DNA from: Cyanobium sp. Prado107
Lineage (GTDB): Bacteria; Cyanobacteriota; Cyanobacteriia; PCC-6307; Cyanobiaceae
DNA: 50,164 nucleotides
Reading direction: 5' to 3'
Assembly: GCA_025454305.1 (NCBI GenBank)
Contig: JALOOQ010000012.1
Coordinates: 1 to 50,164 of the forward strand
The notes below the pieces were generated by a model. The model was not told the origin of the DNA. It ran no database searches and was given only the letters and a program-made list of their open reading frames with translations. Each line of letters opens with the position of its first letter. Within the stretch, counting starts at the first letter, position 1. This document shows, piece by piece, positions 19,906 to 37,071 of the stretch. Position numbers and translations under genes: made by a program.

Positions 19906-20454
19906 ATGCCCGCCCCCCTGTCTTCGCCGCACACCAGCGCCGTGTCGCAGGCGTGGGGACTGGTGGCCATGGTCACGAGTGCACTCATGGCGGTCTGGGT
20001 GTGCCTGCTGATCGTCGTTCCACCTGCGCTGGCCATCACGGCGCCGGAACTCCGGGGCCAGAGAGCGCTGCAGGATCTCCAGCCGGACATGCATGGGCGC
20101 AGCCTGCAGCAGGCTGAGTTCCTCAAGGCTTCCCTGGCGGGGTACGACTTCAGAAAGGCCGATCTGCGGGGTGCGGTGTTCAACAACAGCGATCTGCGGG
20201 GCGCCGACCTCCGCGAAGCCAATCTCGGTGATGTGGTGGCCTATGCCACACGCTTCGACGACAGCGACCTCAGCGGTGCGATCCTGCGCAACGCGATGCT
20301 GATGCAGAGCCGGTTCTCAGGGGTCCGCATCGAGGGAGCCGACTTCACCGACGCCGTGCTGGACCTGCCACAGCAGAAGCAGCTCTGCCAGCGGGCCAGT
20401 GGCTCCAACCCCGTGACCGGGGTGCTCACCCGTGACAGCCTCGCCTGCCGATGA
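19906..20454 (+). CDS. Exported pentapeptide-repeat protein
   Basis: After ATG 19906 a hydrophobic segment (ALMAVWVCLLIVVPPALAIT) acts as a signal or anchor. It is followed by A(D/N)LxX repeats from about residue 70: LQQAEFLKASLAGYDFRKAD, LRGAVFNNSDLRGADLREAN and FSGVRIEGADFTDAVLD. The tail has two cysteines (QLCQRASGSNPVTG and SLACR at the end), a pattern seen in thylakoid-lumen pentapeptide proteins. The length is 182 residues. Role unknown. The stop overlaps the start of the CobW gene (ATGA). Confidence 0.85.
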   Translation: MPAPLSSPHTSAVSQAWGLVAMVTSALMAVWVCLLIVVPPALAITAPELRGQRALQDLQPDMHGRSLQQAEFLKASLAGYDFRKADLRGAVFNNSDLRGADLREANLGDVVAYATRFDDSDLSGAILRNAMLMQSRFSGVRIEGADFTDAVLDLPQQKQLCQRASGSNPVTGVLTRDSLACR

Positions 20455-21533
20455 TGACCAACGCCAGCCCTGCCCTGCCGCACGAGCGGCCATCCCGGCT
20501 GCCGGTGACGGTGGTGACCGGTTTCCTCGGCTCGGGCAAGACCACCCTTCTGCGTGAACTGCTGCTGCGCAGCGGCCTGCGGCTGGCTGTGCTGGTGAAT
20601 GAGTTCGGCGAGGTGGGCATCGACGGCGACCTGCTGCGCAGCTGTGGGTTCTGCCCGCAGGACGAACTCGAAGGGCGCCTGGTGGAACTCACCAACGGCT
20701 GCCTCTGCTGCACGGTGCAGGACGACTTCCTGCCCACGATGACGACCCTGCTCGAACGGGCCCACCAGCTCGACGGCATTCTCGTGGAAACCAGCGGTCT
20801 GGCCCTGCCCGAGCCGCTTGTTGCGGCCTTCGACTGGCCGGAGATCCGCTCACGCACCCGTGTGAACGGCGTGGTGACCGTGGTGGATGGCGAGGCGCTG
20901 GCTGCCGGAGCGGTGGTGGCCGATGCGGAGGCGCTGGAGAACCAGCGCCGCGCCGACCCGAGCCTCGATCACGTCACGGGCATCGATGAGCTGTTCGCGC
21001 AGCAGCTGGCGAGTGCCGACCTGGTGCTGATCAGCCGTGCCGATCTCCTCACGGAGAACCAGCTGGAACAGGTGCGCCAGGGTCTGGCCGGCCTGATCCG
21101 CAGCGGCACGGCGGTGCTGCCGGTGGCCCGCGGGGTGCTTCCTGCCGAGGTGCTGCTGGGACTCGACCACCGTCCCGCCCACCATGACGGTCACGACCAC
21201 CACCAAGACGACGGCGACCACGATCATCACCACCACGTCGCGATGGAATCGCTGGCGCTCCAGCTCAGCGGGTGCTTCCAGCGCACCGCCGTGGAAGAGG
21301 CGCTCAGGCACGTGATCAGGCAGCACGCCCTGGTGCGGGTCAAGGGCCGGCTGCGCATTCCCGGCAAGGCCCGGCCCCTGGAACTGCAGGCCGTGGGGCC
21401 GCGACTGGAGAGCTGGTTCAGTGCGGAGGGCCCGCAGGATCCGGACGTACCGCCGGGCCTGGACCTGGTGATGCTGGGCTTCCAGCTGCCGGAGAGCAGG
21501 CTGCGGGCAGCGCTCGCCGACCTGCTGCACTGA
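20451..21533 (+). CDS. CobW/COG0523 family GTPase, probable metallochaperone
   Basis: P-loop GTPase with Walker A GFLGSGKTT at about residues 24-32, the family metal motif CLCC (within TNGCLCCTVQDDF), ETSGLALPEPL and a C-terminal CobW domain ending in the MLGFQLPESRLRAALADLL block. A His/Asp-rich loop (HHDGHDHHQDDGDHDHHHH) joins the two domains, as in zinc- or cobalt-handling members. The length is 360 residues. It is coupled to the pentapeptide protein by a four-base overlap. The metal, zinc or cobalt, cannot be told from the sequence. Confidence 0.9.
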   Translation: MMTNASPALPHERPSRLPVTVVTGFLGSGKTTLLRELLLRSGLRLAVLVNEFGEVGIDGDLLRSCGFCPQDELEGRLVELTNGCLCCTVQDDFLPTMTTLLERAHQLDGILVETSGLALPEPLVAAFDWPEIRSRTRVNGVVTVVDGEALAAGAVVADAEALENQRRADPSLDHVTGIDELFAQQLASADLVLISRADLLTENQLEQVRQGLAGLIRSGTAVLPVARGVLPAEVLLGLDHRPAHHDGHDHHQDDGDHDHHHHVAMESLALQLSGCFQRTAVEEALRHVIRQHALVRVKGRLRIPGKARPLELQAVGPRLESWFSAEGPQDPDVPPGLDLVMLGFQLPESRLRAALADLLH

Positions 21534-25969: not shown

Positions 25970-26044
25970 TCTGGCTTCACACAAATACGAAGCCGATCTG
26001 AAGCACTGCGCCAGCACCCGCCCGGCAGATTCAGGGTGATGGGT

Positions 26045-26416
26045 ATGAACAGCCCCACCACCGCCTTCCCGGTCTCGGCGCCAAGTGCGGCGCCAGCAGT
26101 CGCGCCAGCTGGCACGCGGTCGGTGCCAACGGCGGGATCGAGTCGTGCGGCGGGCGGGGCCTCCCAGGTGCTGGTGTTCACCCCACGCAGCCTGAACGAT
26201 GCCCGCACGGTGATCGAGGCGGTGCGTGCCCATCGCACCGTGGTCGTGAATTCGGCCTGGCTGGAGGACAGCCCGGGGCAGCGGCTGATCGATTTCGTGT
26301 GCGGGGGCATCGAGGCGATCTGCGGCCAGGTGCACCGCATCGCCGAGGAGGTGTTTCTGTTCGCCCCGGCGGGCACGCGGGTGCAGGCCTGCAATGCTAT
26401 GCGCGTCGAGTCTTAA
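26045..26416 (+). CDS. SepF-like protein (DUF552), short form
   Basis: SepF (Cdv2 in cyanobacteria) anchors FtsZ and shapes the septum. The SepF core is clear: VLVFTPRSLNDARTVIEAVR, HRTVVVNSAWLEDSPGQRLI, DFVCGGIEAICGQVHRIAEE and VFLFAPAGTRV. The product is 123 residues, shorter than the usual cyanobacterial SepF of near 190, and its N-terminal 40 residues are Ala/Pro-rich rather than a membrane-binding amphipathic helix. The start is ATG 26045, with ATG 26039 and GTG 26036 also possible. Probably a paralogue, because the main sepF normally sits near proC. Confidence 0.8.
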   Translation: MNSPTTAFPVSAPSAAPAVAPAGTRSVPTAGSSRAAGGASQVLVFTPRSLNDARTVIEAVRAHRTVVVNSAWLEDSPGQRLIDFVCGGIEAICGQVHRIAEEVFLFAPAGTRVQACNAMRVES

Positions 26417-26490: not shown

Positions 26491-27063
26491 ATGGCTCCTC
26501 TCACCCGTGTGCCCGACGTCACCTTCAAGACCAGGGTGCGTGACGAATCCGTTCCGGGCCCCAACCCCTACCGCTGGCAGGACCTCACCAGCGACGAGAT
26601 CTTCGGGGGCCGCAAGGTGGTGCTGTTCGCCCTGCCCGGTGCCTTCACCCCCACCTGCTCGTCGAACCATCTGCCCCGCTACGAGGAGCTCTACGAGGAG
26701 TTCCGGGCCCATGGAGTGGACCAGATCATCTGCCTGTCGGTGAACGACGCCTTCGTGATGTTCCAGTGGGGCAAGCAGGTCGGTGCCAGGAACGTGTTCC
26801 TCCTGCCCGATGGCAACGGCGAATTCAGCCGCAAGATGGGCATGCTGGTGGACAAGTCGAACCTGGGCTTCGGTCTGCGCTCCTGGCGCTACTCGATGCT
26901 GGTGAACGACGGCCAGATCGAGAAGATCTTCCTGGAGCCGGAGTTCGGAGACAACTGCCCCGTCGATCCCTTCGAGGTCTCCGATGCCGACACGATGCTG
27001 GCCTACATCAAGGGCACCGAACCCGCCGGGGTCAGCGGCCCGCGTCGGGAGTTCGAGGGCTGA
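26491..27063 (+). CDS. Type II peroxiredoxin
   Basis: Prx5/PrxII-type thiol peroxidase, usually reduced by glutaredoxin or glutathione. The peroxidatic Cys56 lies in [15 protein letters not shown] and the second Cys81 in [11 protein letters not shown], the spacing typical of PrxII. The product is 190 residues from ATG 26491. Its 3' end overlaps the convergent SOD gene by 32 bases. It follows the SepF-like gene by 74 bases. Confidence 0.93.
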
Positions 27064-27790
27064 GAGCTGGTGGGCCGGCGCTGGCGGGGCTCAGGGCTTC
27101 GGCATAGCGCTGATTCACCTGATCCCAGTTCACCAGCGACCACCAGGCGGCGATGTAGTCGGCTCGGCGGTTCTGATATCCGAGGTAGTAGGCGTGCTCC
27201 CACACGTCCAGGCCCAGCAGCGGCGTGCCGCGCTCGATCCCGGGCTGATTCATCAGCGGATTGTCCTGGTTGGCCGTGCTGGTGACCGCCAGTGTTCCAT
27301 CGGGGCGCAGGATCAGCCAGGCCCAGCCGGAGCCGAATCGAGCGGCCGCCACCTGGCTGAAGCGGTCCTGCAACGCCTCGAGGGAGCCGAACGAAGCCTT
27401 GATGGCGGCCAGCAGCTCCTCGGAGGGGGTTCCACCGTCGCCGGCAGGGGCCATGGCCGTCCAGAACTGGCTGTGGTTCCAGTGGCCTCCGGCGTTGTTG
27501 CGCACGGCCTCGGGCAGCCGGCGACCCCGTGCCAGCAGCTGCTCCAGGGAGAGCCCGGCCAGATCGTCCCGCTGGGCGAGAGCCGCGTTGAGCTGGGCCA
27601 CATAGCCGGCGTGGTGCCGGTCGTGGTGGATCTCCATGGTGCGGGTATCGATCTGCGGTTCCAGGGCCTCTGCCGGGTAGGGGAGTGGCGGCAGGGTGAA
27701 TGCCGCCTGGGCCGGGGCCGCCGCGACAAGCAGCAGGCCCAGCCAGGCCACCAGCAGCAACTGGCGGAGTGCACGGATCAGGGACGGCAT
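27032..27790 (-). CDS. Exported superoxide dismutase, Mn-type
   Basis: Fe/Mn-SOD family. Metal ligands are H55, H106, D195 and H199 (in [22 protein letters not shown] and [15 protein letters not shown]). The outer-sphere Gln in [10 protein letters not shown] (Q175) is the Mn-SOD type rather than the Fe-SOD type. Residues 1-30 are a clear signal peptide ending AAPAQA, so the enzyme acts in the periplasm or thylakoid lumen. The length is 252 residues. It converges on the type II peroxiredoxin with overlapping 3' ends. Confidence 0.93.
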
Positions 27791-27995: not shown

Positions 27996-30900
27996 ATGAC
28001 GATCGGCAGCGCGAACCCAGCCGCCGGCGCCGGATCCACCGGAGCGAGCGAATCCGGATTGCGTCGGGTGGTGCTGATCGCCGGCTTCGAGGTGTTCAAC
28101 GCCGCCCTCTACCGCCACGCGGCCGAGCGGGCCGTGGCGCGCTGTCCCGAGCTGCAGATCCGCGTCTTCAGCGACCACGACCTGCGCCGGCGCGATCCCC
28201 AACTCGTGGCTGCCCTGAGCGGCGCCGAGGTGCTGTTCGCCAGCCTGATCTTCGATTTCGACGACGTCGAATGGCTGATCCGGCAGGCCGCGGAGATTCC
28301 CGTGCGGCTGGTGTTCGAGTCGGCCCTGGAGCTGATGGCGCTGACGCGGCTCGGCCGCTTCACCATCGGCGCCGGCTCCCGTGGGATGCCCCGGCCGGTG
28401 CGGGCGCTGCTGGACAAGTTCGGCAGCGGCCGGGAGGAGGACCGCCTGGCGGCCTACGTGGGCTTCCTCAAGGTGGGCCCGAAACTGCTGCGCTTCCTGC
28501 CCTCCCGCCGGGCCCAGGATCTGCGCCACTGGCTGGTGCTCTACGGCTACTGGAACGCGGGGGGAGAAGAGAACGTCACCGCCCTGTTCCTCTATCTGGC
28601 CCGGCACGGCCTCGGCCTGGACTGCGGCCCGGTGCCGCCACCCCAGGACACGCCTGCCATGGGGCTGGTCCATCCCGACCACCCGGAGGTGTTCCGCCGG
28701 CCCGGCGACTATCTGGCCTGGTTCCACCGCACCCGGCCGGAGAGCCGCCCCGGGCGTGAGGACTGGCCGGTGGTGGGCCTGCTGCTCTACCGCAAGCACG
28801 TGATCACGGCCCAGCCCTACATCGGCCAGCTGATCCGCGCCTTCGAGGCGGCCCGGCTGATGCCGCTGCCGGTGTTCATCAACGGCGTGGAGGGCCACAT
28901 GGCCGTGCGCGACTGGATGACCAGCGCCAGCGAGCCGCCCTCTCCCCAGCGGCGGCAGGCCGTGGCGGTGGAGGCGATCGTCTCGACGATCGGCTTCCCG
29001 CTGGTGGGCGGACCGGCCGGCTCGATGGAGGCCGGCCGGCGCGAGGAGGTGGCGCAGCGCATCCTGCGGGCCAAGAACGTGCCCTACGTGGTGGCGGCGC
29101 CGCTGCTGATCCAGGACATCCACTCCTGGAGCCGCCAGGGCATCGGCGGTCTGCAGAGCGTGGTGCTGTTCGCCCTGCCGGAGCTGGACGGCGCCATCGA
29201 CCCGGTGCCCCTGGGCGGCCTGGTGGGTGACCGCATCCTTCTGGTGCCCGAGCGGCTGCGGAGACTCACCGGCCGTCTCAACGCCTGGATCCGGCTGCGC
29301 CGAACGCCTCCGGCCGAGCGGCGGCTGGCGATCGTGCTCTACGGCTTCCCGCCGGGCTACGGGGCCACCGGCACGGCGGCGCTGCTGAACGTGCCGGACT
29401 CGCTGATGAGCCTGCTGGAGGCGCTGCGCCGCCAGGGCTACGACCTGGGCGATCCCGCCGACTGGCCCGCCGACGGCGAGGAGCTGGTGCGGCGGGTGAA
29501 GGAGGCCGATGAGGCCTGGCTGAGCCGCATCCCGCCGGGGGAGCGGTTCGAGGAGTCGCCCCTGGCCAGCGTCGGCGCCGACGAACTGCGGCAATGGCTG
29601 GGACCCCTGCACAGCCGCCGCATCGAGCGCCAGTGGGGGCCGCTCAGGGGCACCGGCATCCGCACCCTGGGGGATCGCTTCCTGCTGGGCGGGGTGCGGC
29701 TGGGCAACGTCTGGATCGGTGTGCAGCCGCCCCTGGGGGTGGCGGGCGATCCGATGCGGCTGATGTACGAGCGCGACCTCACGCCCCACCCCCAGTACGC
29801 CGCCTTCTACCTGTGGCTGCAGCGGCAGCTGAAGGCCCACGCGGTGCTCCACTTCGGGATGCACGGCACGGTGGAATGGCTCCCGGGCTCGCCCCTGGGC
29901 AACACCGGCTACTCCTGGCCAGACCTGCTGCTGGGCGATCTGCCTCACCTCTATGTGTATGCGGCCAACAATCCGTCGGAGTCGATGCTGGCCAAACGGC
30001 GTGGCTACGGGGTGCTGATCTCCCACAACGTGCCCCCCTACGGCCGGGCCGGGCTGTACCGGGAGCTGGTGGCGCTGCGGGATCTGATCGGCGAATACCG
30101 CGAGGATCCGCTGCGCAACGCCGCCCTGCGCGAGCCGATCCTCAAGGCCGTGTTCGATGCCGGCCTCGATCGCGACTGTCCCCTGCCCGCAGGACTCGAC
30201 CGCCAGGGAACCGAGCAGGAACTCTTCGACACCTATCTCGCGCAGCTGAGCAGCTACCTGCAGCTCCTGGAGCAGCGGCTGTTCTCCAGCGGCCTGCACA
30301 GTCTTGGTGAGCCGCCGGACCGCGCCGGGCTGCTCAGCTACCTCCGGGCCTGCTTCGGTGAGGAGCTGAGCGGCCCGCTGCTGGAGGAGATCACGGCGCT
30401 GGAGCCGGCCAGCCTGGATCGGCTCGCCGACGAGGCCGCCCTGCAGTCCCGGGGGCATGCCCTGCAGCAGCAGCACCCCGAGCTGAACGCTGCCGGACAG
30501 GAGACGCTGGCGCGCGCTCTGCGGGTGGCGGGGCTGCTGCAGCGCAACCGCGAGGAACTCACCAACCTGCTGCGGGGCCTCAACGGCGAATACATTCCTC
30601 CCGCCCCGGGCGGGGACCTGCTGCGCGACGGGCCTGGCGTGCTGCCCACAGGCCGCAACATCCATGCCCTCGACCCCTACCGCATGCCGTCGGCGGGGGC
30701 GATGGCTCGCGGCCGCACGATCGCCCGCCAGATCCTCGAGCGCCACCGCGCCGAGCACGACGGCGCCTGGCCGGAGACCGTGGCGGTGATGCTGTGGGGC
30801 CTCGATGCCATCAAGACCCGGGGCGAATCGCTGGCGATCCTGCTGGAGCTGGTGGGAGCCCGGCCGGTGCAGGAGGGCACGGGCCGGATCGTGCGCTACG

Positions 30901-31856
30901 AGCTGATCCCGCTGGCGGAGCTCGACCACCCCCGCGTCGACGTGCTCGCCAACCTGTCGGGGATCTTCCGCGACAGCTTCGGCAACATCCTCGAGCTCCT
31001 CGACGATCTCTTCCGCCGCGCCGCCGAGGCCGACGAGCCCGAGGAGCGCAACGCCATCCGCCGCCACTGCAGCGCCCTGCGGGCCGAAGGGGTGGAGAAC
31101 CCCAGCGCCCGGCTGTTCTCCAATCCGGCGGGCGATTTCGGGTCGCTGGTGAACGATCGGATCACCGACGCCAACTGGGAGCAGGGCGATGAGCTCGCCG
31201 CCACCTGGCGCGACCGCAACGCCTACAGCTATGGCCGCAGCGACCACGGCCAGGCCCGGCCGGAGGTGCTGGCGTCGCTGCTGCGCAGCACCGACCGGGT
31301 GGTGCAGCAGATCGACTCGGTGGAATACGGGCTCACCGACATTCAGGAGTACTACGCCAACACCGGCGGCCTCAAACGGGCCGCCGAGGTGGCCCAGGCG
31401 GCCGAGCGTCCCGGGCGGCGGGTGCCGGCCAGCTTCGTGGAGTCATTCTCGCGCGACACCACCCCCCGGGAGCTGGACGAGCTGCTGCGGCTGGAGTACC
31501 GCAGCAAGCTGCTCAACCCCCGCTGGGCCGAGGCGATGGCCTCGATGGGCTCCGGCGGCGCCTACGAGATCTCCCAGCGCATGACGGCGCTGATCGGCTG
31601 GGCGGGCACCAGCGACTTCCGCGATCAGTGGGTGTACGACCAGGCGGCCGACACCTACGCCCTCGATCCGGCCATGGCCTCCCGCCTGCGCCAGGCCAAC
31701 CCCGAGGCCTTCCGCAACGTGGTGGGCCGCATGCTGGAGGCCAGCAGCCGCGGCATCTGGGAGGCCTCGCCCGACAGGCTGGCCGCCCTGCGGCAGCTCC
31801 ACGACCTCACCGACGCGGAACTCGAGGGCGTGGCGGTGGCCGCCGGGGCCGGGTGA
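27996..31856 (+). CDS. Magnesium-chelatase H subunit-like protein (divergent ChlH/BchH)
   Basis: CobN/BchH family; the H subunit binds protoporphyrin IX and inserts Mg. The N-terminal DUF3479-type part reads GLRRVVLIAGFEVFNAALYR, then EVLFASLIFDFDDVEWLIRQ. The core follows, with TIGFPLVGGPAG, FALPELDGAIDP, HFGMHGTVEWLPG (from residue 619), YAANNPSESMLAKRRGYG, LPTGRNIHALDPYRMPS and a complete C-terminus. The length is 1286 residues. Compared with the ChlH I know from cyanobacteria (about 1330), the region after residue 720 is shortened and the block near 1115 reads DIQEYYANTGGLKRAAE instead of the DVSHYFDSDP type. It is coupled to the D-subunit gene by GTGA at 31853. CobN was considered and rejected on the N-terminus. 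Confidence 0.85.
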   Translation: MTIGSANPAAGAGSTGASESGLRRVVLIAGFEVFNAALYRHAAERAVARCPELQIRVFSDHDLRRRDPQLVAALSGAEVLFASLIFDFDDVEWLIRQAAEIPVRLVFESALELMALTRLGRFTIGAGSRGMPRPVRALLDKFGSGREEDRLAAYVGFLKVGPKLLRFLPSRRAQDLRHWLVLYGYWNAGGEENVTALFLYLARHGLGLDCGPVPPPQDTPAMGLVHPDHPEVFRRPGDYLAWFHRTRPESRPGREDWPVVGLLLYRKHVITAQPYIGQLIRAFEAARLMPLPVFINGVEGHMAVRDWMTSASEPPSPQRRQAVAVEAIVSTIGFPLVGGPAGSMEAGRREEVAQRILRAKNVPYVVAAPLLIQDIHSWSRQGIGGLQSVVLFALPELDGAIDPVPLGGLVGDRILLVPERLRRLTGRLNAWIRLRRTPPAERRLAIVLYGFPPGYGATGTAALLNVPDSLMSLLEALRRQGYDLGDPADWPADGEELVRRVKEADEAWLSRIPPGERFEESPLASVGADELRQWLGPLHSRRIERQWGPLRGTGIRTLGDRFLLGGVRLGNVWIGVQPPLGVAGDPMRLMYERDLTPHPQYAAFYLWLQRQLKAHAVLHFGMHGTVEWLPGSPLGNTGYSWPDLLLGDLPHLYVYAANNPSESMLAKRRGYGVLISHNVPPYGRAGLYRELVALRDLIGEYREDPLRNAALREPILKAVFDAGLDRDCPLPAGLDRQGTEQELFDTYLAQLSSYLQLLEQRLFSSGLHSLGEPPDRAGLLSYLRACFGEELSGPLLEEITALEPASLDRLADEAALQSRGHALQQQHPELNAAGQETLARALRVAGLLQRNREELTNLLRGLNGEYIPPAPGGDLLRDGPGVLPTGRNIHALDPYRMPSAGAMARGRTIARQILERHRAEHDGAWPETVAVMLWGLDAIKTRGESLAILLELVGARPVQEGTGRIVRYELIPLAELDHPRVDVLANLSGIFRDSFGNILELLDDLFRRAAEADEPEERNAIRRHCSALRAEGVENPSARLFSNPAGDFGSLVNDRITDANWEQGDELAATWRDRNAYSYGRSDHGQARPEVLASLLRSTDRVVQQIDSVEYGLTDIQEYYANTGGLKRAAEVAQAAERPGRRVPASFVESFSRDTTPRELDELLRLEYRSKLLNPRWAEAMASMGSGGAYEISQRMTALIGWAGTSDFRDQWVYDQAADTYALDPAMASRLRQANPEAFRNVVGRMLEASSRGIWEASPDRLAALRQLHDLTDAELEGVAVAAGAG

Positions 31857-33937
31857 GCGTTTCCAGTGCGGCACGGCCCTATCCGCTTCATGCCGTGGTG
31901 GCTCAGGAGCGGATCCGCACCGCCCTGCTGCTGCTGGCGGTGGATCCGGGGCTCGGCGGGGTGGTGATCGCCGGCCGGCGGGGCACGGCCAAGACCGTGA
32001 TGGCCCGGGCCCTGCACGCCCTGCTGCCACCCATCCGGGTGATCCGCCACTCCTGCGCCCAGGCCGACCCGGCCGCTCCCTGGGACTGGGACGACGCCAC
32101 CGTCGCCCACCGGGCACGGATCAGCCGCACGCCGGTGAGCGCGGTCGTGCCGCCGCCGTTCGTGCAGGTGCCGCTGGGGGTGAGCGAAGACCGGCTGCTC
32201 GGCTCGGTGGATGTGGAGGCCTCGATGCGCAGGGGCCGGCCGGTGTTCCAGCCGGGACTGCTGGCCGAGGCCCACCGCGGCGTGCTGTGCGTGGACGACC
32301 TCAACCTGCTGGAGCCCGCCCTGGCCGATCTGCTGCTCTCCGCCGTGGCGGCGGGCTTCAACCAGGTGGAGCGCGAGGGCATCAGCTTCCGTCACCCCTG
32401 CCGGCCGCTGCTGATCGCCACCGCCAACCCCGCCGAGGGGGAGCTGCGGCCCCACCTGCTGGACCGCTTCGCCATGGTGCTCAGCGCCGACCTGCCCCTG
32501 ACGCTCGACGAACGGGTGGAGGCGGTTCGCCGGGTGCTCTGGTTCGCCGAGCAGCCTTCGCAGTTCTGGGGCCACTACGGCGCCGGGCTGGAGGCGCTGC
32601 GGCGGCAGGTGCTCGCGAGCCGCCGGCGCCTGCGGCGGATGCGCATCCAGCGGGCCCAGATCCGCTACCTGGTGGAGGAGTCGATCCGGGCCGGCACCCA
32701 GGGGCACCGGGCCGATCTGTTTGCCGTGCGGGTGGCCCGGGCCCACGCCGCGCTACAGGGGCGGGAGCGGGTGAAGGCGGTCGACCTGCGCGAAGCGGTG
32801 CGGCTGGCGGTTCTGCCCCGTTCGGCCCTGGTGCTCGCCCCGCCCCCGCCACCACCGACGTCACCGCCGCCGCCGTCCCCCGCAGACCAGCCGCCCGGCG
32901 ATACGGCCCCGCCGCCGCCGGAAGGTGGCGAAACGACCGCCCCGCCCCAGGACCCCGACGTGGTGCCGGAGACCTTCCTGTTCTCGCCGGAGGGGGTGGC
33001 TCTCGACCCCGATCTGCTGGCCATCGCGGCGCACCGCGGCCGTCGCCAGGGGCGCAGCGGCGGGGGCGGGCTGGTGCATTCCCGGGAGCGGGGCCGGTAC
33101 GTCAAGGCGGTGCTGCCCCATGGGCCGGTCGTGCGGGTGGCCGTCGACGCCACGCTGCGGGCGGCGGCGCCGCATCAGCTAGTGCGGCGCCGGCTCCTGC
33201 AGCGGCGGCAGGCCCGCACCCGGGGCCGGCAGGTGCTGATCCGCGATCAGGATCTGCGCGTCAAGCTCCTGGCGCGCAAGGCCGGCGCCCTGGTGATCTT
33301 CGTGGTGGACGCCTCCGGCTCCATGGCCCTCAATCGCATGCAGGCGGCCAAGGGAGCGGTGCTGCAGCTGCTCAGCGAGGCCTACCGCCACCGCGACCAG
33401 ATCGCCCTGATCACCTTCGCAGGCCAGCGGGCGCGGGTTCAGCTGCCGCCCACCCGCTCGATCACAGCGGCCTCCCGGCGGCTGGAGCGTCTGCCCTGCG
33501 GCGGCGGCTCGCCGATGGCCCATGGCCTGGCCCTGGCACTGCGGGTGGGAGGCAATGCCCTGCTCTCCAAGGACATCGCCGAGGTGATCGTGGTGCTGAT
33601 CACCGACGGCAGGGCGAACGTGGACCTGAGCCGGTCGCTGGCGGTCCCGGCCGGCGGTGGCGGTGGTCGTGGGGGTGATGGTCGTGGTGCTGGCGGTGAA
33701 CCGCTGACCCTGGCGGACATTCACGCGGAGGTGCTGACGATCGCCCGCACCCTCGCCAGCCTGATGGTGCCTCTGCTCGTGATCGACACCGGCAGCCGGC
33801 ATCCGCCCTCAGCTCTGCTGGCGGATCTGGACAGCAAGGGCGGCGCCACGGTGCTGCCCCTGCCGCGGGCAACGGCCGCACAGATCAGCGCCACATCACG
33901 GCGGTGGCTGGCGCAGGGGCGATCCGGCGACGGCTGA
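31853..33937 (+). CDS. Magnesium-chelatase D subunit-like protein (ChlD-type, AAA plus VWA)
   Basis: The D subunit partners the AAA ATPase ChlI to drive Mg insertion by H. The AAA domain has Walker A GRRGTAKT (residues 41-48). The Walker B-like VDDLN (147-151) differs from VDEIN in the usual ChlD. A Pro-rich linker (about 325-362) follows, then a VWA domain with MIDAS DASGSM at 486-491. A glycine-rich insertion (about 598-616) interrupts the VWA domain after ITDGRANVDLSRSL. The length is 694 residues from GTG 31853. No I-subunit gene is nearby, so ChlI would have to come from elsewhere. It may be the only ChlD of the genome or a paralogue. Confidence 0.88.
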   Translation: MSVSSAARPYPLHAVVAQERIRTALLLLAVDPGLGGVVIAGRRGTAKTVMARALHALLPPIRVIRHSCAQADPAAPWDWDDATVAHRARISRTPVSAVVPPPFVQVPLGVSEDRLLGSVDVEASMRRGRPVFQPGLLAEAHRGVLCVDDLNLLEPALADLLLSAVAAGFNQVEREGISFRHPCRPLLIATANPAEGELRPHLLDRFAMVLSADLPLTLDERVEAVRRVLWFAEQPSQFWGHYGAGLEALRRQVLASRRRLRRMRIQRAQIRYLVEESIRAGTQGHRADLFAVRVARAHAALQGRERVKAVDLREAVRLAVLPRSALVLAPPPPPPTSPPPPSPADQPPGDTAPPPPEGGETTAPPQDPDVVPETFLFSPEGVALDPDLLAIAAHRGRRQGRSGGGGLVHSRERGRYVKAVLPHGPVVRVAVDATLRAAAPHQLVRRRLLQRRQARTRGRQVLIRDQDLRVKLLARKAGALVIFVVDASGSMALNRMQAAKGAVLQLLSEAYRHRDQIALITFAGQRARVQLPPTRSITAASRRLERLPCGGGSPMAHGLALALRVGGNALLSKDIAEVIVVLITDGRANVDLSRSLAVPAGGGGGRGGDGRGAGGEPLTLADIHAEVLTIARTLASLMVPLLVIDTGSRHPPSALLADLDSKGGATVLPLPRATAAQISATSRRWLAQGRSGDG

Positions 33938-33988: not shown

Positions 33989-35122
33989 ATGGCTTCCGCC
34001 CCGCATGCCACCCCGAAGGCCGCCATCTCCCTGCTCGCCGCCGCCGGTGGCGGTCCGCTGCTGTTCCGCCAGCTGTTCGACGCCGACACCGGCACCTTCA
34101 CGTACCTGCTGGCCGACACCGCCGGCCGCCAGGGGGTGATCATCGACAGCGTCTTCGAGCAGCACCAGCGCGACCTCTCCCTGATCCGGGAGCTGGGCAT
34201 CGAGCTGGTGGCCTCGATCGACACCCACGTGCACGCCGACCACGTCACCGGCAGCTGGCTGATGCACGCGGCCACCGGCTGCGCGATCGGCCTGGCGGCC
34301 GCGGGTGGCGCCGAGAACGTCACCCTGCCCTTCACCCACGGCGATCGGGTGCCCTTCGGCAACCGCTACCTGGTGGTGCGCAGCACGCCGGGGCACACCG
34401 ATGGCTGCCTCACCTACGTTCTGGATGACCGTTCCATGGCCTTCACGGGTGATGCCCTGCTGGTGCGGGGCTGTGGCCGATGCGATTTCCAGCAGGGTGA
34501 TGCCCACGCCCTGTGGACCTCGATCACCGAGCAGATCTTCAGCCTGCCTGAGTCCTGCCTGCTCTACCCCGGCCACGACTACACCGGCCGCAGCGTCACC
34601 TCGGTGGTCGAGGAGAAGTCCTACAACGCCCGCCTCGGCGCCGGTGCCACCGAACGCGATTTCGTGGGCCACATGGAGAACATGAAGCTCCCGCATCCGC
34701 ACCGCATCGCCGAGGCGCTGCCCGGCAACCTGCGGTCCGGCAAGCCCAGAGAACCGCAGGCAACCCCTGCCTGGGCGCCGGTGGCCCGCAGCTACGCCGG
34801 CCTGCCGGAGCTGACGCCGGCCTGGGTTGCAGCCCACCGCCAGGACGTGACGGTTGTCGATGTGCGTTCCGCCGAGGAGCTCGAGGGTCCCGACGGGCGG
34901 GTGGAAGGCAGCCTCTCGATCCCGCTGCCCGACCTGGAACGGCGCAGCGCCGAGATCCCAGCCGACCGGCCGGTGGTGGTGGTGTGCCATTCCGGCAGCC
35001 GCTCCGCCCTCGCCACCCAGCAGCTGCTCAAGGCCGGTCGGGCCGAGGTGGCCAACCTGCGCGGTGGGCTGCGCCTCTGGGCCGACGAGGGCTACCCGCT
35101 CGAGGTTCCTCAGCTGACCTGA
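33989..35122 (+). CDS. Persulfide dioxygenase-rhodanese fusion (ETHE1-like MBL plus rhodanese)
   Basis: The N-terminal metallo-beta-lactamase domain carries THVHADH (79-85), H136 in TPGHTDG, D155 in TGD and H196 in YPGHDY. The ETHE1-type block GCGRCDFQQGD follows the Asp. The C-terminal rhodanese domain has its active Cys333 in VVVVCHSGSRSA. ETHE1-like enzymes oxidise glutathione persulfide to sulfite; the rhodanese part can move sulfane sulfur to thiosulfate. The product is 377 residues with no signal peptide. It is the first gene of a sulfur cluster; upstream, GTTGTCCCTATGCGGCTAAAG is A/T-richer and may hold the promoter. Confidence 0.88.
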   Translation: MASAPHATPKAAISLLAAAGGGPLLFRQLFDADTGTFTYLLADTAGRQGVIIDSVFEQHQRDLSLIRELGIELVASIDTHVHADHVTGSWLMHAATGCAIGLAAAGGAENVTLPFTHGDRVPFGNRYLVVRSTPGHTDGCLTYVLDDRSMAFTGDALLVRGCGRCDFQQGDAHALWTSITEQIFSLPESCLLYPGHDYTGRSVTSVVEEKSYNARLGAGATERDFVGHMENMKLPHPHRIAEALPGNLRSGKPREPQATPAWAPVARSYAGLPELTPAWVAAHRQDVTVVDVRSAEELEGPDGRVEGSLSIPLPDLERRSAEIPADRPVVVVCHSGSRSALATQQLLKAGRAEVANLRGGLRLWADEGYPLEVPQLT

Positions 35123-35240
35123 ACCCGGTGCGCCATCAGCGCTCCGCCAGCCGGACCCTGCGGGCTCCTTCCTGTCCAGTCCCGGATTCGGTGCCGCTGC
35201 CGGTTCTGTGCCCCCACACCGCTCTCTGTCCCCAGACGTG

Positions 35241-35780
35241 ATGACCACCACCCAGCCCCTGCCGCACCGCAGCCGTGTGTCGGCCCACGACCTGACTGAC
35301 CAGCTCACCAGTCATGCCGTGACGGTGGTCGATGTGCGTGAACCGGTGGAATTCGCCTCCGGCCATATCGAGGGAAGCCTCAACATCCCCCTCGGGCGTC
35401 TCGCGAGAGCCGACCTGCCCAGTGGTCCGCTGGTGCTGGTGTGCCACAGCGGCAACCGCAGCAGCCGGGGTCTGCGGATCCTGCAGCAGCAGGGTCACCC
35501 CCATCCCGTCGCCGACCTGGAGGGCGGGGTGCTGTCCTGGGAGCAGGCCGGTCTGCCCCTGCGGCGGCTGCGGAAGGCTCCTCTGCCGCTGATGCGCCAG
35601 GTGCAGATCGCCGCCGGTTCCCTCGTGCTGCTGGGGCTGATCCTCAGCCAGGTGGCGGCGCCGGCCTGGATCCTGCTCACCTGGTTCGTGGGGGCCGGCC
35701 TGGTGTTCGCCGGCATCAGCGGCTTCTGCGGCATGGCGCAGCTGCTGGCGGCGATGCCCTGGAACCGGATCTCGCCGTGA
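35241..35780 (+). CDS. Rhodanese domain fused to a DUF2892-like membrane hairpin
   Basis: The rhodanese domain (VVDVREPVEFASGHIEGSLN) has catalytic Cys68 in LVCHSGNRSSRG. After residue 110, two membrane segments follow (IAAGSLVLLGLILSQVAAPA and WILLTWFVGAGLVFAGISGF), ending in GFCGMAQLLAAMPWN. This rhodanese-membrane form is found in thiosulfate and sulfide modules and probably presents sulfur at the inner membrane. ATG 35241 gives 179 residues. The stop overlaps the next gene's GTG (GTGA). Confidence 0.85.
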   Translation: MTTTQPLPHRSRVSAHDLTDQLTSHAVTVVDVREPVEFASGHIEGSLNIPLGRLARADLPSGPLVLVCHSGNRSSRGLRILQQQGHPHPVADLEGGVLSWEQAGLPLRRLRKAPLPLMRQVQIAAGSLVLLGLILSQVAAPAWILLTWFVGAGLVFAGISGFCGMAQLLAAMPWNRISP

Positions 35781-36625
35781 TCGAGTCCACACCGACCCTG
35801 CTGCTGCTGGGCGGCGCCCTGATCGGGTTTCTGCTGGCGGTGCTGGGTGCCGGTGGCTCGATCCTGCTGCTGCCGCTGCTGGTCAGCGGGGCTGGGCTGC
35901 CCACCCGTGAAGCCGTACCGCTGTCCCTGATCGTGGTGGGGCTGCTGGCCCTGGCCAATGTGCCGCCCTACCTGCGCCGGGGCTGGATCGCCCCCAGGCC
36001 CGCCCTGGTGCTGGGCGTGCCGGCCCTCGTGGGCAGCTGGATCGGTGGCAGTCTGGTCAAGGCCGGTCTCATTCCCGAAGCCCTGCAGCTGGCTCTGTTC
36101 GCCGCGGCGGCGCTGCTGGCCTCGTGGTTGCTCACCCGCAGCTCCACGCTCGTGACAGCCACCACCGCCAACCAGGCCAGCGGCGGCGGCAGCGGACTGC
36201 TGGCGGCGCAGGGAGTGCTGGTGGGTCTGCTCACCGGGATCGCCGGTGTGGGTGGAGGCTTCGCCATCGTCCCGGCCCTGGTATTGCTTGCGGGACTGCC
36301 GATGGCGCTGGCCAGCGGCACCAGCCTGGTGCTGATCGCCACCAACGCCCTGGTGGCACTGCTGGCCCTGGGCCACTGGCCCAGGGATGTGATGGCACTG
36401 CTGATCCCCCTGCTGCTGGGAGGACTGGCTGGCGGCGTGGTGGGCCAGAGGCTGGCACCCCACCTGCCTGATCTACGGCTGCGTCAGGGCTTCGCGGTGC
36501 TTCTGGTGGGCTCCGCTCTGCTCACCGGCGTGGAGGCCTGGCGGCGCCAGCAATCGCTCCCCACCGCGGAACGTCCTCCCCAAGCCGCGCCAAGGGCCTT
36601 GTCCCCGTCGTTCCGCCTGCCATGA
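35777..36625 (+). CDS. TauE/SafE-family sulfur anion exporter
   Basis: Polytopic membrane protein of 282 residues with about eight hydrophobic segments. The duplicated family motif appears twice: LLAVLGAGGSILLLPLLVSG near residue 20 and LLTGIAGVGGGFAIVPALVL near 155. Members export sulfite or related sulfur compounds. The GTG start overlaps the rhodanese stop, and the stop overlaps the OsmC-like ATG. Here it probably removes sulfite made by the upstream persulfide dioxygenase. Confidence 0.88.
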   Translation: MIESTPTLLLLGGALIGFLLAVLGAGGSILLLPLLVSGAGLPTREAVPLSLIVVGLLALANVPPYLRRGWIAPRPALVLGVPALVGSWIGGSLVKAGLIPEALQLALFAAAALLASWLLTRSSTLVTATTANQASGGGSGLLAAQGVLVGLLTGIAGVGGGFAIVPALVLLAGLPMALASGTSLVLIATNALVALLALGHWPRDVMALLIPLLLGGLAGGVVGQRLAPHLPDLRLRQGFAVLLVGSALLTGVEAWRRQQSLPTAERPPQAAPRALSPSFRLP

Positions 36626-37071
36626 CGCCAGAACGCCTGTTTCGGTTCCGCCTTCAGAGCCGGCATTCCGCTCCCGAGCGGGCCAGCACTGATCTGGCTG
36701 TCCAGTGGCTGAGCCCTGAGGGCCTCTGGGAACCCCAGGAACTCACCCTCACCATGCCGGGGTTCCGGATCTACCTGATCTCGCTGCTGCTCTGCCAGCA
36801 TTTCTATCTCGTGGCCAACGCCCGCGAACGGGGGATCCCCCTGGAGCGGGTGGAGGCTGACTTCGCGGTGAGCGCCGGAGAGGACTGGATCCTGCACAGC
36901 GTGACCGGCGACTTTCAGATCCAGCTGGACGGATCGGCGCTGGTGCAACGGGGCGGCTCCATGTCCGAGGAGGACCTCGCCTTCATCGAGGAACGCATGA
37001 AAGCCTGTCCTGTATCGAGAAATCTGGCTTCTTCAGTGGAGAAGCGCACCAGACTGAAGGTGTTCGGCTGA
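36622..37071 (+). CDS. OsmC-like protein
   Basis: OsmC/Ohr-fold protein of 149 residues. The family ending MSEEDLAFIEERMKACPVSRN includes Cys129, and Cys58 in LISLLLCQHFYLVANARERG is the likely partner. In OsmC these two cysteines reduce organic hydroperoxides. In sulfur clusters, OsmC-like proteins may act on persulfides. It overlaps the TauE/SafE stop by four bases, so it is the last gene of the four-gene operon. Confidence 0.8.
   Translation: MTPERLFRFRLQSRHSAPERASTDLAVQWLSPEGLWEPQELTLTMPGFRIYLISLLLCQHFYLVANARERGIPLERVEADFAVSAGEDWILHSVTGDFQIQLDGSALVQRGGSMSEEDLAFIEERMKACPVSRNLASSVEKRTRLKVFG

Follow-up and report, generated by a model that had tools for sequence, protein, structure and literature searches.

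Magnesium chelatase catalyses the committed step of chlorophyll synthesis, and a stretch of 50,164 nucleotides from Cyanobium sp. Prado107 (contig JALOOQ010000012.1, positions 1 to 50,164; hereafter 'the window') carries genes for its H and D subunits as an overlapping pair. Is this pair the only chelatase of its lineage, or a second one with a task of its own? The H gene, designated chlH2 (positions 27996-31856, forward strand), encodes 1286 amino acids, and the D gene, chlD2 (31853-33937, forward strand), encodes 694 amino acids from a GTG start. The start of chlD2 lies over the TGA stop of chlH2 in the tetranucleotide GTGA (31853-31856, forward strand), exactly the coordinates and four-base overlap given in a first reading of the window (the original prediction), and the same overlap recurs in two relatives within the genus (L031 and L047). 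With a probability of about 60%, judged from the comparisons below, the pair would be a second dedicated magnesium-chelatase module that shares ChlI with the canonical set and serves, most likely, micro-oxic or sulfidic conditions.

The genome around the window (242 contigs, 88% complete) was searched for other chelatase subunits. Canonical ChlH, with its YFDSDP sequence, was found on contig C127, where the contig end truncates it, and a C-terminal fragment lies on C111; canonical ChlD was found in pieces over C196 (L190) and C225 (L191); one ChlI was found, on C115, and CobN on C215. The H-D pair is thus a second set in the genome besides the canonical chelatase, which rules out the option, left open by the original prediction, that it is the only set of the lineage. 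The favoured suggestion of a second chelatase was supported, since further chlH and chlD genes were present and both proteins of the pair fell outside the ChlH1 and ChlD1 clades in trees. No ChlI gene was found among the open reading frames surrounding chlH2-chlD2 in the window, as had been noted from the sequence. The broken state of ChlD1 is most likely a matter of assembly, because it is intact in a close relative (G004) whose H2 protein is 96% identical to that of the window. Compared with G004, the piece on C196 has a local frame break and small gaps here and there, which probably stem from assembly. Separately, the two canonical chlH fragments (L001 on C127 and L004 on C111) share a 305-base overlap in which they are only 96% identical, pointing to two strains mixed in the draft genome or else to two chlH1 copies. 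Contamination or an assembly artefact as the source of the H-D pair itself was ruled out, as was chance, because the pair recurs in independent genomes: ChlH2 is present in 13 of 300 Cyanobiaceae genomes, and the pair occurs in isolates such as Synechococcus sp. WH 5701, J7-Johnson and Cruz-8D1.

To which chelatase family do the two proteins belong? Against NCBIfam models, the H protein scored 1419 bits with BchH/ChlH TIGR02025 (cut-off 829) and 535 bits with the best CobN model (cut-off 822), while the D protein scored 629 bits with BchD-ChlD TIGR02031 (cut-off 500) and 618 bits with the cobaltochelatase subunit model TIGR02442 (below its cut-off of 779); these scores rule out a cobaltochelatase identity. 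H2 shares about 34% identity with ChlH1, 35% with BchH and 29% with the CobN of the same genome. In the H tree it falls in a distinct H2 clade (support 100) that excludes ChlH1, BchH and CobN, and proteobacterial BchH joins ChlH1 rather than H2 (Shimodaira-Hasegawa-like approximate likelihood ratio test, 97). Second H proteins with 65-72% identity to the window H2 were found in 11 of 23 other cyanobacterial families sampled, the carriers including Synechococcus sp. WH 5701, Cyanobium sp. PLM2.Bin73 and many Nostocales and filamentous forms. A ChlH2/CHLH2 isoform of cyanobacteria and green algae has been placed on a tree by Rockwell and Lagarias in 2023 (PMC10156173), whose main text, in the portion available, states no function, partner D subunit or operon for it. 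The window H likewise stands second beside ChlH1, outside the ChlH1 and CobN clades and patchy among cyanobacteria; on this pattern (a second H outside ChlH1) it behaves as a member of that known, unstudied clade.

As had been predicted, H2 falls short of ChlH1 in length (1286 versus about 1338 amino acids); the missing stretch, however, begins near residue 810 and not after 720. About 58 residues of ChlH1 positions 813-888 are absent from H2, and proteobacterial BchH lacks most of that stretch too. The other feature singled out earlier, YYANTGGLKRAAE in place of YFDSDP, is a real difference but not an oddity of H2: the position reads YYANTGG in H2, YFDTLGG in BchH and YYQFQGGL in CobN. Since BchH and CobN carry the glycine pair as well, that is the usual state and YFDSDP a peculiarity of ChlH1. 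Both active-site glutamates of ChlH are present, and each is invariant in 12 aligned ChlH2 proteins. Glu627 (codon 29874-29876, forward strand) corresponds to the residue substituted in PDB 6ytj (HGSLEF to HGSLKF), and Glu662 (codon 29979-29981, forward strand), in the motif NNPSE, to that substituted in PDB 6yt0 and 6ytn. Furthermore, at sites that are fixed within Mg-type H proteins and within CobN but differ between the two, H2 has the Mg-type residue at 27, the CobN residue at 5 and neither at 13. Magnesium is therefore the likeliest metal on these residues, though with 13 positions peculiar to H2 the substrate could be a different one.

The D protein forms a separate lineage, here named ChlD2, on the trees and residues below; it is the newer part of the finding, the H clade being already known. 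No earlier description of a second D lineage was found in the literature searched, and the available part of one paper on a chlD frameshift shows none; the other papers listed dealt with an unrelated photosystem pigment term. A first D tree that included remote BchD and cobaltochelatase outgroups had long branches and placed one outgroup inside the cyanobacterial D proteins, so the trees were rerun without these outgroups and are unrooted. In these, a branch with support of 100/100 (99 in another tree) parts ChlD2 from every canonical ChlD, that of its own family among them. An approximately unbiased (AU) test rejected the joining of ChlD2 to Cyanobiaceae ChlD1 (P=0.0003), and the tree and test together rule out a recent duplication of Cyanobiaceae ChlD as its origin. 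Moreover, three residues near the metal-ion-dependent adhesion site (MIDAS), K573, L582 and A588 (33569-33616, forward strand), are present in all 23 ChlD2 proteins, where ChlD1 has G, A and G in 27, 27 and 26 of 27. The deviation of the D partner noticed at first reading is genuine. When the unrooted tree is drawn from its midpoint, ChlD2 from outside Cyanobiaceae forms a grade; with the root unfixed, ChlD1 could be the derived form.

ChlD2 consists of an AAA+ domain (31853-32812, forward strand; Walker A GRRGTAKT, Walker B VDDLN), a proline-rich linker and a VWA/integrin-I domain (33287-33889, forward strand) in which the MIDAS motifs DASGS and TDG are intact. The Walker A form GRRGTAK also occurs in most canonical cyanobacterial ChlD, which rules out the idea that a degenerate Walker A marks a lost ATPase in D2. 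Walker B reads VDD instead of VDE in the ChlD2 copies of the window's genus; the catalytic motifs of the pair are largely intact. Since E627, E662, Walker A and MIDAS are kept, a working H-D pair on a shared ChlI is the natural reading. Compared with the canonical ChlH1-ChlD1-ChlI set, the pair has the same subunit plan, catalytic glutamates and AAA+ and MIDAS motifs, whereas D2 is about 56% identical to ChlD1, the two genes overlap and the ChlH1 813-888 segment is missing from H2. Proteobacterial BchH/BchD/BchI follow the same plan too, and BchH is of similar length to H2; BchD, however, is far more divergent from ChlD2.

The unit of inheritance was examined through gene neighbourhoods. ChlD2 adjoins ChlH2 in all 13 Cyanobiaceae carriers, and the H2-lacking genomes examined yielded no second D, either in the carrier genera g6, g58, g68 and g70 (19 genomes) or in the window's genus (10 genomes, of which G002 and G007 are under 80% complete). 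Within the family the branching orders of D2 and H2 agree, which indicates co-inheritance. The other neighbours of the pair differ between genera, none being common across them, so the H2-D2 pair itself is the unit. Outside Cyanobiaceae, ChlH2 loci are normally without a D neighbour. A class-wide search of 390 genomes for extra D proteins, together with earlier searches, gave 11 genomes outside the family with D proteins of the ChlD2 side. ChlH2 lies near ChlD2 in 3 of these 11, all unrelated genomes: the genes are in tandem in G588 (L222), and convergent in G585 (L227; 0.9 kb apart) and G569 (L225; 2.6 kb apart). The nearest relatives of Cyanobiaceae ChlD2 are those of G588 and G608. Wherever both were checked, ChlD2 was accompanied by ChlH2, that is, in Cyanobiaceae and in 6 of the 11 genomes outside it (G047, G422, G380, G588, G585 and G569).

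These features can be assembled into a mechanism. ChlH2 would bind the porphyrin and bear the metal-insertion site, and ChlD2 would act as its dedicated adaptor, its VWA domain touching ChlH2 and its AAA+ domain docking on the hexameric ATPase ring of the shared ChlI. Translation of the overlapping genes would be coupled, keeping H2 and D2 in step, and a separate D2 would route the common ChlI motor to H2 without competition with ChlH1 and ChlD1. Magnesium would be put into protoporphyrin IX under micro-oxic or sulfidic conditions, so that the pair would stand beside the low-oxygen isoforms ChlAII and HO2 as their equivalent for Mg chelation. What the comparisons establish is the existence of a second set, the separate descent of ChlD2, its linkage with ChlH2 and catalytic motifs that are largely intact; we infer the enzymatic activity, magnesium as its metal, the common use of ChlI, an exclusive partnership of H2 with D2 and a role at low oxygen.

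Hints of the last came from gene context and co-occurrence, which put a low-oxygen role of the pair at roughly even odds. The ChlD2 region of G496 (L228) holds a Rieske/sulfur-transferase fusion and a rhodanese, together with an interrupted psbA variant, HemF, AcsF and a gene that resembles heme oxygenase in sequence (an NCBIfam scan gave no match for it). In Acaryochloris marina, genes of like kind, the Rieske fusion AM1_0450, psbA1, AcsF AM1_0465 and HO2 (HO AM1_0466), are strongly up under micro-oxic conditions (PMC5295598). Such a micro-oxic-type island surrounds 1 of the 11 ChlD2 genes outside Cyanobiaceae, that of G496. Furthermore, HoxH hydrogenase is present in all 13 ChlH2-bearing Cyanobiaceae and in 74 of the 287 others (Fisher P=5e-8). 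Immediately 3' of the window chlD2 lies a set that resembles sulfide detoxification, comprising a metallo-beta-lactamase/rhodanese fusion, a YgaP-like rhodanese and a TauE-type exporter, and the same metallo-beta-lactamase gene is found within the ChlH2 flanks in L054, L058 and L227. According to the available text of a review (PMC4500134), ChlAII, HO2 and HemN are low-oxygen isoforms under ChlR; it names such isoforms for coproporphyrinogen oxidation, the cyclase and heme oxygenase, and in that text none for Mg chelation. The logic proposed here would be common to that set: an alternative form of a tetrapyrrole enzyme for use under micro-oxic conditions. Porphyrin-bound BchH is reported to be rapidly inactivated by light and oxygen (PMC10156173, in the portion available). 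A bolder version, in which H2-D2 is a complete second Mg-chelatase lineage that shares only ChlI, runs chlorophyll synthesis at scarce oxygen in the presence of sulfide, and may retain in ChlD2 rather than ChlD1 an older state as a pre-oxic relict, is put forward tentatively and would be somewhat more likely wrong than right.

Several observations weigh against the module for micro-oxic or sulfidic conditions. No ChlA, HO, HemF or psbA gene was found within the flanks of 101 ChlH2 loci (0 of 101). The HoxH association is confounded by genus, as all g6 genomes checked have HoxH, with or without H2. A second AcsF copy accompanies only 8 of the 13 H2 carriers, and this loose association led to its being dropped as a partner marker. 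H2 also differs at positions that are otherwise universal in ChlH1, BchH and CobN (P385 to G, H599 to P, L678 to N and T679 to V, among others), so an altered substrate or metal is possible. Finally, ChlD2 was not found in 10 of 11 ChlH2-bearing genomes examined; with ChlD2 missing from most such genomes, ordinary ChlD can evidently serve H2. ChlD2 is thus optional for ChlH2 in general and constant in Cyanobiaceae.

The best-surviving rival takes the pair as an Mg-chelatase isoform that is redundant or serves dosage and has nothing to do with oxygen (useful, for example, under iron limitation, a certain light colour or a growth phase), retained because it came with its own D. Its patchy occurrence in the family and the turnover of its neighbours between genera would fit, as would the genes for a Fe/Mn superoxide dismutase and for peroxiredoxins that, in the window's genus, lie close to the pair. 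Yet the age of the H2 and D2 lineages and the conservation of their diagnostic residues and motifs speak for a distinct function, and one ChlD2 sits inside the micro-oxic island of G496; we consider redundancy unlikely. Less probable still is a chelatase that keeps the H-D-I plan but handles a different metal (cobalt, nickel or zinc) or a different tetrapyrrole (a modified porphyrin). This reading draws on the departures of H2 from all Mg-type H proteins at several universal positions and its sharing of a few CobN states, on a COG0523-type CobW GTPase in the same window (20451-21533), and on genes near D2 in G569 that resemble, by sequence, CobW, ArsR and cation efflux; but a CobN is already present in the genome, H2 lies far under the CobN cut-offs and above that for Mg-chelatase, its discriminating sites are mostly of Mg type, and the pair is not accompanied by any gene for making a different tetrapyrrole. 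Another metal and iron limitation, both raised as alternatives in the original prediction, gained no support. A dechelatase that strips metal from a tetrapyrrole, as the CobN-like heme dechelatase and H-family homologue HmuS does, is very improbable, since H2 is closer to ChlH than to HmuS (708 versus 311 bits) and its tight linkage to a partner D with largely intact ATPase and VWA motifs argues for an ATP-driven chelatase.

Should the dedicated Mg-chelatase module hold, the second D lineage that travels with ChlH2 would give this isoform a partner and a testable role, and the pair would offer a natural system for how two H-D pairs share one ChlI motor. As ChlH2 is also reported in green algae in the available text of PMC10156173, the answer may reach beyond cyanobacteria. 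If expression agrees, ChlH2-ChlD2 would be the missing Mg-chelatase member of the low-oxygen isoform set as described in the portion of PMC4500134 at hand.

As for the surroundings of the pair in the window, the metallo-beta-lactamase/rhodanese fusion gene (33989-35122, forward strand), whose product is persulfide-dioxygenase-like, starts 51 bases 3' of chlD2 and is possibly on the same transcript. A scan for sigma-70-type promoters gave no match. The fusion gene opens a row at 33989-37071 that continues with the YgaP-like rhodanese (35208-35780, forward strand), the TauE/SafE sulfite-exporter family protein (35750-36625, forward strand) and a weak OsmC-like protein. On the other side, the Fe/Mn superoxide dismutase gene (27032-27790, reverse strand) is divergent from chlH2 and neighbours it only in the window's genus. 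Further upstream lies a paralogue of the cell-division protein SepF (26036-26416), and SepF-like genes are also found upstream of ChlH2 in L150 and L155. The CobW-family GTPase of the window has a histidine-rich stretch, DGHDHHQDDGDHDHHHH, and is possibly a metal chaperone.

Other loci showed arrangements of their own. In G037 (L041), chlH2 and canonical chlH adjoin in divergent orientation. The cyanobacterial genome G048 carries two CobN-like proteins (L044 and L045), each some 30% identical to ChlH2 and strongly diverged from the other (one branch has a length of 3.4). In G115, a Cyanobiaceae genome, the gene for the bidirectional hydrogenase large subunit HoxH lies just downstream of chlD2 (L156:4465-5940). 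The interrupted psbA variant that adjoins ChlD2 in G496 (L228:5591-6789) has the C-terminal part HAVNAHNFPLTL, apparently without two manganese-ligand residues of normal D1.

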